Shown here: positions 53,864 through 59,181 of the stretch, in pieces | How positions within the stretch are numbered: position 1 is the first letter of the stretch | Layout: every line of letters starts with the position of its first letter | Assembly: GCF_002723935.1 (NCBI RefSeq) | Contig: NZ_BEWM01000005.1 | Span: forward strand, 186,001-250,000 | Length of the DNA stretch: 64,000 nucleotides | Source of the DNA: Gluconobacter cerinus | GTDB taxonomy: Bacteria > Pseudomonadota > Alphaproteobacteria > Acetobacterales > Acetobacteraceae | Direction of reading: 5' to 3' | The notes under the pieces: generated by a model | Databases searched by the model: none | What the model was told of the DNA's origin: nothing | The model's input: only the letters and a program-made list of their open reading frames with translations | Translations under genes and position numbers: made by a program

Positions 53864-57118
<3,255 letters not shown>

Positions 57119-57121
57119 GGC

Positions 57122-58483
57122 TCAGGCTCCTGCTTTAGCGCGACGGTCCATGACCGCGACGAAACGCTCGAAAAGATAGAAACTGTCAGACGGGCCAGGG
57201 CTGGCCTCGGGATGGTACTGGACGGAGAAGGCGTCCTTCGTGGTGGAGGCGATGCCTTCGTTGGAGCCGTCAAACAGGCTCACATGCGTTACCTTCACAT
57301 CAGCGGGCAGCGACTTCTCATCCACGGCGAAGCCATGGTTCTGGCTGGTGATTTCCACGCGGCCGCTCTCAATGTCCTTGACCGGCTGGTTGGCACCGCG
57401 ATGGCCGCGATCCAGCTTGTAGGTCGTTCCGCCGAGGGCCTGTGCGAGAAGCTGGTGCCCAAGGCAGATGCCGAAAACAGGCACGTTGGCGTCCAGAACG
57501 CTCTTGATGGCTGGTACGGCATACGTGCCAGTAGCTGCCGGGTCGCCCGGGCCATTGGAGAGGAACACGCCTTCGGGCTTCAGTTCCAAGATTTCCTCGG
57601 CCGTTGCCGTCGCCGGCAGAACCGTGACGTCACAACCAGCGGTCACGAGGCAGCGCAGGATGTTGTCCTTGGCGCCATAATCCATGGCGACCACGCGGCG
57701 GCGGTTCTCGGTACGGGCCGGGCGGGTGCTTTCCCACACGCCATCGGTCCAGACGCGCTTTGGCTGCGTGACCTCTTTGGCGAGATCCATGCCTTCAAGG
57801 CCGGGCCACTGGCGGGCGCGGTTCAGCAGGCTGTCCGTGTCGATCCGACCATTCGCCGGGAAGGCAAGGATGGCGGTCTGTGGGCCATTGTCGCGCAGGG
57901 AACGGGTAACTGCACGGGTGTCGACGCCACTTATGCCAGCGCGGCCGTGTTGCTTCAGCCATCCGTCGAGGGATTCTGTGGAGCGCCAGCTTGCCGGAGC
58001 GGTGATGTCTTCCTTCACGACGGCGCCAAGAGCAGCCATTTTTGGCGCTTCATTGTCGTCCGTGTTCGTGCCGACGTTGCCGATATGCGGGAAGGTGAAG
58101 GTGACGATCTGCCCAGCGAAAGACGGGTCTGTCAGGGTTTCCTGATAGCCGGTCATACCGGTGGAGAAGCAGAGTTCACCGACGGCGCCATCGGTGTGGG
58201 CACCGAAGCCTCGGCCCCACAGGACCGTGCCATCTGCAAGGACAAGGGCGGCATTGGCGCCGGCAGGGCAGGGATTGGACACGTCCGTCTCTCTTTCTTG
58301 CGGGGTTTCAGCGGAAGTTAGGTCCTGGAGTTCGATTCCGGGAACGCGCAGCAGTGCGGGCCAGTGCTTGGTCGGCACGGTTCGCGACTGACGCCACTTT
58401 CGTACGGCTTCAAGGCCGACACCAGCCAGCGCGGCGATTTCTTCCGCGCCACCAGCTTTTTCAATGATTCTGTCGATGTCCAT
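57122..58483 (-). CDS. carA: Carbamoyl-phosphate synthase small subunit with an N-terminal HTH domain
   Basis: The product has 453 residues, about 65-75 more than the usual CarA. The additional N-terminus (1-56) is a helix-turn-helix-like domain, MDIDRIIEKAGGAEEIAALA then GVGLEAVRKWRQSRTVPTKH, resembling YdaS/Cro-type HTH; NCBI models that I recall under the name carph-isopro describe such a domain in alphaproteobacterial CarA. A linker (57-77) leads to normal CarA with the amidotransferase Cys340 in FGICLGHQLLAQA and His424/Glu426 in VQYHPEAS. ATG 58483 has AGGA about 9 bases upstream. An internal GTG near the linker could yield the shorter form. Two palindromes lie upstream. Confidence 0.9.
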   Translation of the reverse strand: MDIDRIIEKAGGAEEIAALAGVGLEAVRKWRQSRTVPTKHWPALLRVPGIELQDLTSAETPQERETDVSNPCPAGANAALVLADGTVLWGRGFGAHTDGAVGELCFSTGMTGYQETLTDPSFAGQIVTFTFPHIGNVGTNTDDNEAPKMAALGAVVKEDITAPASWRSTESLDGWLKQHGRAGISGVDTRAVTRSLRDNGPQTAILAFPANGRIDTDSLLNRARQWPGLEGMDLAKEVTQPKRVWTDGVWESTRPARTENRRRVVAMDYGAKDNILRCLVTAGCDVTVLPATATAEEILELKPEGVFLSNGPGDPAATGTYAVPAIKSVLDANVPVFGICLGHQLLAQALGGTTYKLDRGHRGANQPVKDIESGRVEITSQNHGFAVDEKSLPADVKVTHVSLFDGSNEGIASTTKDAFSVQYHPEASPGPSDSFYLFERFVAVMDRRAKAGA

Positions 58484-58543
58484 GGTCGCCCGTTCCTGGC
58501 TCCGCGTTCATTTTCCCGTCTGATAGGCGATCGAACCGGAAAT

Positions 58544-58602
58544 GGGAAGTTTTTTCCCAATGAGTTTTTGTGTCTGTGGAATGGCATGGGAAAAAACTTC
58601 CC
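58544..58602. promoter_or_regulatory. Twin GGGAA-N5-TTCCC palindromes upstream of carA
   Basis: GGGAAGTTTTTTCCC (58544-58558) and GGGAAAAAACTTCCC (58588-58602) are exact reverse complements of each other, and each one is itself a palindrome GGGAA-N5-TTCCC. Their centres are 44 bp apart. They lie in the 242-bp gap between the divergent carA and yqeY. They may be two operator copies for a dimeric regulator or, in RNA, the arms of a 16-bp stem. Confidence 0.55.
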
Positions 58603-58725: not shown

Positions 58726-59181
58726 ATGTCGCTTCGCACGCAGATCATGGATGACCTCAAAACAGCAATGAAGGCTGGTCAGTCTGAGAAGGTGGCGCAG
58801 ATCCGTGGCATCACGGCGAAGCTGAAGGATCTTGAAGTTGCTGCTCGCGCCAAGACCGGGGAAGTGACGGAAGCAGAGATTATTTCCGCTCTGCGCTCCA
58901 TGATCAAGTCCCGTACTGAATCCGCAACGATGTATCGTGAGGGTGGCCGTCCGGAACTGGCGGAAAAGGAAGAAGGTGAGATCGCAACGATCAAGGCCTA
59001 CCTGCCGCCAGAACTCGATGAGGCAACTCTGAAGTCTGCCATTGATGAAGCCGCCACTGCTGTAGGTGCGGAAAGCATGAAAGACATGGGCAAGGTGATG
59101 GCAGCGCTGAAAGAGCGTTTTGGTGCCGATCTGGACCCGGCCAAGGCCAGTGCACTTGTGAAGGCACGTCTGTCTGCCTGA
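58726..59181 (+). CDS. GatB/YqeY family protein
   Basis: The product has 151 residues from ATG 58726 (AGGAG upstream); the frame is open upstream without a start signal. MSLRTQIMDDLKTAMKAGQS and EGEIATIKAYLPPELDEATL are typical of YqeY. The domain is shared with the C-terminal tRNA-binding part of GatB, but the function of stand-alone YqeY is unknown. The divergent carA-yqeY pair is common in alphaproteobacteria, where dnaG and rpoD often follow; here they do not. A terminator follows. Confidence 0.92.
   Translation: MSLRTQIMDDLKTAMKAGQSEKVAQIRGITAKLKDLEVAARAKTGEVTEAEIISALRSMIKSRTESATMYREGGRPELAEKEEGEIATIKAYLPPELDEATLKSAIDEAATAVGAESMKDMGKVMAALKERFGADLDPAKASALVKARLSA

Follow-up and report, generated by a model that had tools for sequence, protein, structure and literature searches.

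PutA is the textbook example of an enzyme with a built-in autorepressor; PepA is an aminopeptidase. The available passages of PMC5293562 describe trifunctional PutA as a metabolic enzyme whose N-terminal DNA-binding domain makes it an autogenous repressor, and those of PMC6245113 describe PepA as a metabolic 'trigger enzyme' that represses promoter P1 of carAB in E. coli. A further point of comparison is provided by the phage Cro proteins of the P22/N15/Xfaso1 class, which have an all-helical fold and operators at promoters.

We examined carA in a stretch of Gluconobacter cerinus DNA (the window, by which we mean the whole 64 kb that was analysed), where the gene product carries an additional N-terminal domain and the upstream region holds two palindromes. 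A reading of the window made from its letters alone (the sequence-only reading) had guessed that CarA binds these sites and controls carAB. The guess is supported by the near-exclusivity of the sites to carA, by their loss together with the domain, and by the way in which operator bases tend to go with particular residues of the recognition helix, all of which is sequence evidence without binding, footprint or expression data. We put the probability at roughly 0.85 that CarA, alone or within CarAB, binds its own promoter at twin operators and acts as a negative feedback repressor of carAB.

A Cro-like domain on a full-length CarA

Features of the carA region, in positions of the window
Feature	Position	Strand or sequence	Basis
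carB (large subunit)	53864-57118	-	directly 3' of carA, 3-bp gap
carA (carbamoyl-phosphate synthase small subunit + N-terminal Cro-like domain)	57122-58483	-	ORF, 453 aa, ATG start
Cro-like HTH domain (NF046037 carph-isopro), CarA residues 3-56	58316-58477	-	profile match, AlphaFold model, Foldseek
Predicted -10 TATCAG	58520-58525	-	17-bp spacer from -35; inferred
Predicted -35 TTCCCA	58543-58548	-	right arm of proximal operator; inferred
Proximal operator (predicted, no binding data)	58544-58558	GGGAAAAAACTTCCC on carA strand	sequence and conservation
Distal operator (predicted, no binding data)	58588-58602	GGGAAGTTTTTTCCC on carA strand	sequence and conservation
Divergent neighbour ORF	58726-59181	+	ATG at 58726; "yqeY" is the name given by the sequence-only reading

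The sequence-only reading described a helix-turn-helix (HTH)-like N-terminus in front of a normal enzyme, and profile searches bear out both halves of that description. CarA residues 3-56 score 60.2 bits against the NCBIfam family NF046037, 'carph-isopro' (cutoff 38), and so belong to it, while residues 78-446 score 444.6 bits against TIGR01368 (cutoff 307.35), the match of a full-length small subunit, whose catalysis was not assayed; PF00988 and PF00117 also match. Membership of the N-terminus in the Pfam family PF15943 (YdaS_toxin) was rejected, with scores of 23.4 bits for the whole protein and 27.7 bits for the N-terminal piece, both under the gathering cutoff of 30. The entry for NF046037 offers only a domain name, and among the papers listed in literature searches (6 to 20 of up to 15,062 per search) none describes carph-isopro or a DNA-binding domain on CarA, a weak absence that extends to open-licence papers only.

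A structure prediction of the N-terminus had been proposed along with the guess. The AlphaFold model of the domain has five helices at a mean pLDDT of 88, with the recognition helix at about residues 24-33 (LEAVRKWRQS); the specificity-associated residues G23, Q32 and R34 lie in or beside it. The top nine Foldseek matches of the model are Cro structures or a Cro hybrid, with a best E value of only 0.013, and the best matches include Xfaso1 Cro (3bd1, TM 0.77), N15 Cro-DNA (6on0, TM 0.60) and P22 Cro (1rzs). A profile search of the PDB with 18 family members also placed phage Cro first (N15 Cro E 0.001, XPH1 0.0038, Xfaso1 Cro 0.0053, P22 Cro 0.07). As far as a predicted model can tell, the domain meets the criterion of an all-helical Cro fold.

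Codons 1-50 of carA, compared with 25 relatives in the genus, give a pS of 0.530, a pN of 0.029 and a pN/pS of 0.056, next to a pN/pS of 0.071 for a comparison stretch of 150 enzyme codons of carA, from which it follows that the HTH part is translated and constrained. Among 60 sampled relatives, every one of the 35 genomes from the family Acetobacteraceae has a match to the window's CarA that extends as far as the N-terminus, split into two pieces in G031 and G032; where other families give a long match, the alignment begins between residues 58 and 76. The domain profile matched 115 of 120 Acetobacteraceae genomes and passed its cutoff in 113, at least one of them (G164) only through a stand-alone protein.

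Eight family genomes in which the fusion was missing or doubtful were followed up. Four have no carA match (G068, G158, G088 and G123), G117 has a fragment, and the carA of G075 starts right at the end of a contig. A truly unfused carA is present in G078 and G164, both of genus g54, and in G164 it is accompanied by a separate stand-alone member of the domain family. The lack of a carA match at E 1e-40 in genus g44 (G068 and G158), one genome of which is 92% complete, may reflect either loss of the pathway or incomplete assembly.

Domain and enzyme share one reading frame in 136 of the 141 genomes whose upstream DNA was read. In one other (locus L162 of G136) the enzyme is in a different frame from the domain, by frameshift or assembly error, and in four (G028, G084, G087 and G105) too little downstream DNA was present to judge, G028 being full-length in the sample of 60 relatives. 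The domain-CarA fusion is present in nearly all sampled Acetobacteraceae genomes. It had been conceded at the outset that the HTH part might be untranslated, with CarA starting at an internal GTG near residue 68; the low pN/pS of the first codons, together with the conservation of the domain and its in-frame fusion in relatives, rejects this possibility.

We presume that carA and carB are co-transcribed, and given the 3 bp that separate them, repression would act on both subunits. On the other side of carA, a gap of 242 bp leads to the divergent ORF, which has no NCBIfam match at E 1e-20.

Twin palindromes upstream of carA

The two GGGAA-N5-TTCCC palindromes were first reported by the sequence-only reading as exact reverse complements of each other, which we confirmed: the proximal site reads GGGAAGTTTTTTCCC on the forward strand and the distal site is its exact reverse complement, 44 bp away from start to start. 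No other exact match to the pattern occurs in the window, where 0.12 would be expected and where two sites arose in 0 of 100 shuffles. The whole 3.58-Mb genome contains 10 exact matches (5 for the reversed-pattern control) and only this one twin. A wider regulon was considered and rejected, as five of the other eight sites in this genome lie in long open frames and two in the gaps between frames that converge; the last, a single GGGAA-N5-TTCCC (L269:1011-1025), precedes a purC-like frame by about 100 bp. These are open frames only, with gene calls unchecked.

Conservation was assessed in a set of 141 genomes with one gene each (143 records including the window, minus two records that were not carA), counting as twins those regions with one site matching at least 9 of 10 positions and a second matching at least 8 of 10. 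Twin sites were observed in 119 of the 141 upstream regions (reversed pattern 0, Markov shuffles 0.15), at least one site of 9/10 or better in 128 (reversed pattern 1, shuffles 2.0) and a perfect site in 112 (reversed pattern 0, shuffles 0.05), which leaves 22 regions that miss the twin criterion and 13 without any site of at least 9/10. Measured between their starts, the sites of 97 of the 119 twins are 37-41 bp apart and those of 118 are 33-55 bp apart; the remaining twin has a spacing of 82 bp. The palindromes are also conserved in genera with a CarA of only 64-68% identity (L033 and L034). Poor conservation in relatives that have the fusion would have refuted the idea of an operator bound by CarA, and it did not materialize.

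An exact twin search of 249 family genomes matched 94 of them (reversed control 0), and in all 30 of the 94 loci that were fetched the start of the CarA HTH lies within 260 bp. Within the genus, the 17-mer TGGGAA-N5-TTCCCA is found at 28 sites in 25 of 26 genomes (reversed control 2 sites). Since 24 of these sites are at carA and four elsewhere (in G008, G013, G024 and G025), the predicted operators are nearly dedicated to carA within the genus. At L034 the sites are kept beside a different divergent ORF; judged by such neighbourhoods, the putative operators go with carA and not with yqeY, which speaks against control of yqeY by CarA, an option that the initial guess had left standing.

Promoter position and the proteins that may act there

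The upstream regions contain 'near' promoters, with the proximal site close to the start codon (n=90), and 'far' promoters, which include that of the window (n=38). In 79 of the near promoters a TTG stands exactly 7 nt before GGGAA, and no other offset examined has it in more than 2. A TA starting 1 nt past the site is seen in 54 and one starting 3 nt past it in 25 (the two are not exclusive); 52 combine the TTG with the TA at 1 nt. These positions suggest that the proximal operator of the near class fills the 17-bp spacer of a TTGnnn...TAnnnn promoter, and because the first ATG comes 13-14 nt past the site in 63 of the 90, the transcript would be nearly leaderless. In 28 of the far promoters TA lies exactly 18 nt after the site, from which we infer that the operator's own TTCCCA serves as the -35 element, again with a 17-bp spacer. 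The spacer-filling arrangement is predicted for most genera sampled and the -35 arrangement for the window's group. In the available passages of PMC5756330, which make no mention of carA, the motifs of mapped G. oxydans promoters are 'ttGnnn' at -35 and 'nAtnnn' at -10, the latter being 'Tatnnn' for the transcripts of highest abundance.

We propose that the Cro-like domain would bind as a pair of domains per palindrome to two TGGGAA-N5-TTCCCA-type operators before carA, mostly 37-41 bp apart and 44 bp apart in the window, and that occupancy of the proximal operator, inside the core promoter, would block RNA polymerase, so that CarA, by itself or as part of CarAB, would repress carAB by negative feedback. 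Physical binding is an inference, and so is the use of the twin sites by dimers or tetramers: the palindromes alone, with no complex modelled, suggest a homodimer on a palindromic operator, and with a tetramer of CarAB, four HTH domains would be available to two palindromes. Repression as the sign of the effect is likewise inferred, from the expectation that a protein on a site in the promoter core should exclude RNA polymerase.

Any metabolite switch is a matter of inference as well. According to the available passages of PMC6245113, UMP inhibits the CPSase of E. coli, and ornithine and IMP activate it; in the presence of UMP the enzyme exists mainly as a heterodimer, and in the presence of ornithine it assembles into tetramers. 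Such UMP-induced dissociation argues against simple end-product repression by oligomers, and if only higher oligomers bound DNA, the UMP/ornithine pattern of E. coli alone would, by analogy, give no sensible feedback. We infer negative feedback by the concentration of CarA or CarAB, possibly modulated by oligomeric state.

We regard it as unlikely that CarA binds the sites and activates carAB, or that it controls the divergent gene, instead of repressing its own operon. Two upstream sites could suit an activator, but the TTG of the near promoters stands where the -35 element must be if the operator fills the spacer, and a protein bound there normally excludes RNA polymerase. Control of the divergent gene would fit the location of the window's sites between the two genes, but not the way in which the sites follow carA when the neighbour changes (L034).

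Whether the palindromes co-occur with the HTH-CarA fusion was a check that the sequence-only reading had proposed. They do so in our samples: beside the twins in 119 of the 141 genomes read at the domain start, no site above 7/10 was found upstream of 15 unfused carA genes, two from g54 and 13 from genomes of other families (a sixteenth gene examined, that of G075, was left out as it starts at a contig edge).

Operators also tend to shift to CGGAA-N5-TTCCG where the recognition helix changes, an association only. This variant is the best site in 12 of the 141 genomes. Among 126 aligned columns, comprising the domain and the start of the enzyme, residue 32 comes first, being changed in 11 of the 12 CGGAA genomes versus 5 of the 129 others (p 7e-12), followed by residue 23 (p 3e-8), residue 34 (p 1.7e-4) and enzyme residue 102 (p 4.7e-4); these p values ignore relatedness. 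We also tabulated the outer base of half-sites in the best 80 of 394 relatives, a sample enriched for the Acidocella type by the Acidocella-type sequence that led the query. With Ser32 this base is C in 97 half-sites, G in 2 and another base in 13 (n=112), and with Gln32 it is G in 130, C in 40 and another base in 6 (n=176). In the same best 80 of 394, the best sites are CGGAA-type in most Acidocella and Acidiphilium loci, and at least one of the sites carries GGGAA in Acetobacter and Gluconacetobacter.

There are exceptions in both directions. GGGAA-type best sites are retained with Ser32 in G113, His32 in G186 and Thr32 in G194, and CGGAA is found despite Gln32 in G128 (Asp25) and in a clade of L313, L322-L324 and L348 (Ser23, Gly34), where the changes sit in or near the recognition helix. 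On a tree of 139 CarA proteins, built from the enzyme part only, pure CGGAA needs four changes with mixed sites set aside and 10 if these are counted as other. An independent-pairs sign test for covariation was not significant in either of two trees, the first providing 1 pair on well-supported branches and 6 over the whole tree, the second 1-2 and 4-8 depending on the trait. With residue 32 as the best-associated column, few independent shifts and a non-significant tree test, the covariation is specific in location but phylogenetically thin.

A rival possibility is that another transcription factor for carAB uses the twin sites as its operators and that the domain of CarA has some different role, for example in oligomerisation or localisation. 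The link between domain and sites has nothing beyond comparative sequence evidence to rest on, and according to the available passages of PMC6245113 carAB of E. coli is under several separate factors, PepA among them. A separate factor was one of the alternatives named by the sequence-only reading, and we now consider it quite unlikely: the sites are almost private to carA, unlike those of a regulon, they are absent together with the domain in g54, their bases tend to follow the recognition-helix residues, they stay when the neighbouring gene changes (L034), and other fusions of the carph-isopro domain have palindromes of their own (see below). The remaining alternative from that reading, an RNA stem formed by the inverted arms in the carA leader (attenuation), draws on the perfect complementarity of the window's two 15-mers and can be rejected with very little doubt. 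The arms are placed within the predicted promoter core or upstream of it, outside the predicted transcript (whose start is predicted, not mapped), and near-class mRNAs would have almost no leader. Nor do the N5 centres covary: among the 103 twins that have both sites at 9/10 or better, just 7 are fully complementary, for which reason the exact complementarity in the window looks incidental, and the mean is 2.08 of 5 complementary positions versus 1.90 when permuted (136 of 2000 permutations as high).

The domain on other proteins and the comparison with known systems

The proposed autorepression by CarA can be set beside the other proteins that carry the same domain. Across the class, a search at E 1e-8 detects the domain in 51 of 289 genomes, of which four belong to the window's family. 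By eye, we take 24 of the 28 non-CarA loci read (L112-L141; for example L116, L123 and L127) to encode COG4223-type membrane proteins with the domain near the N-terminus. Most of the 17 membrane-protein loci scanned had no palindrome with an arm of at least 6, or only ones that shuffles often matched; the fusion at L136 stands out, with TTTAATCATATGGATTAAA upstream (1 of 100 shuffles). At L227, a stand-alone domain protein is preceded by roughly three imperfect palindromes of TGGGC/GCCCA type, recognized by eye, as expected for a Cro-like autorepressor.

Fusions to enzymes were followed in two orders (11 and 4 genomes). Behind the domain, PyrB, the phosphoglycerate dehydrogenase SerA, a bifunctional NAD(P)H-hydrate epimerase/dehydratase and a crotonyl-CoA reductase score above NCBIfam cutoffs and a HisZ-like protein scores below them; L359 presumably encodes an ArgB-like kinase, recognized from its sequence. 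In all three fusions to PyrB, the aspartate carbamoyltransferase (L361:834-1985, L377 and L379), a TTGCG-N5-CGCAA precedes the start of the domain by 70-77 bp. Eight of nine NAD(P)HX fusions (L131/L362 and L369-L376) match TGTACGT-N5-ACGTACA at 11 or more of 14 positions, and the ninth (L374) at 10. The palindrome lies before the start codon, with a TTG exactly 8 nt before the 19-mer in all nine, again predicting a 17-bp spacer with the -10 element inside the palindrome's end. Among the HisZ-like fusions (L358 and L381-L384), TGTCCTG-N4-CAGGACA is perfect in one of four (L381) and matched at 10-11 of 14 positions in the rest, and L358 has TATTCATATTATATGAATA near its start. No palindrome with an arm of at least 6 was found in the 160 bp upstream of the SerA (L355:618-2384), ArgB-like (L359) and crotonyl-CoA reductase (L139/L363) fusions. 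These non-CarA motifs were derived from the very sequences in which they were then counted, so the comparison with shuffles is too favourable to them, and several of the loci are closely related, with an upstream identity of up to 0.89; the palindromes are a lead, not proof.

We think the balance tips slightly towards carph-isopro being a portable autoregulation module that has been fused repeatedly to the N-termini of unrelated Alphaproteobacteria enzymes (CarA, PyrB, HisZ-like, SerA, ArgB-like, NAD(P)HX and crotonyl-CoA reductase), each a dedicated repressor of its own promoter with a palindrome that co-evolves with the recognition helix. If true, this would establish 'repressor-enzymes' as a class, with sensing done by the enzyme complex itself, and a module that looks portable would be useful for feedback-controlled enzymes in acetic-acid bacteria. 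For CarA, an enzyme at the pyrimidine/arginine branch point appears to be an autorepressor across a whole family; control of carAB in these bacteria becomes testable, and the natural operator variants permit a direct swap test.

By analogy, PutA is the nearest functional parallel. CarA has the features that would qualify it as a trigger enzyme of the PutA type, namely a full-length enzyme, a DNA-binding domain on the same polypeptide, and a conserved operator in its own promoter, the last computed and without a footprint. PutA (proline dehydrogenase/P5C dehydrogenase) uses a ribbon-helix-helix and acts in proline catabolism, whereas CarA has a Cro-like HTH and is a biosynthetic amidotransferase subunit, and the switch is proven for PutA and not for CarA. 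The phage Cro proteins share the all-helical fold of the CarA domain but are stand-alone phage proteins, whereas in CarA the domain forms part of a host enzyme. PepA wraps operator DNA and is unrelated to CarA, whereas here the product of carAB itself bears the domain.
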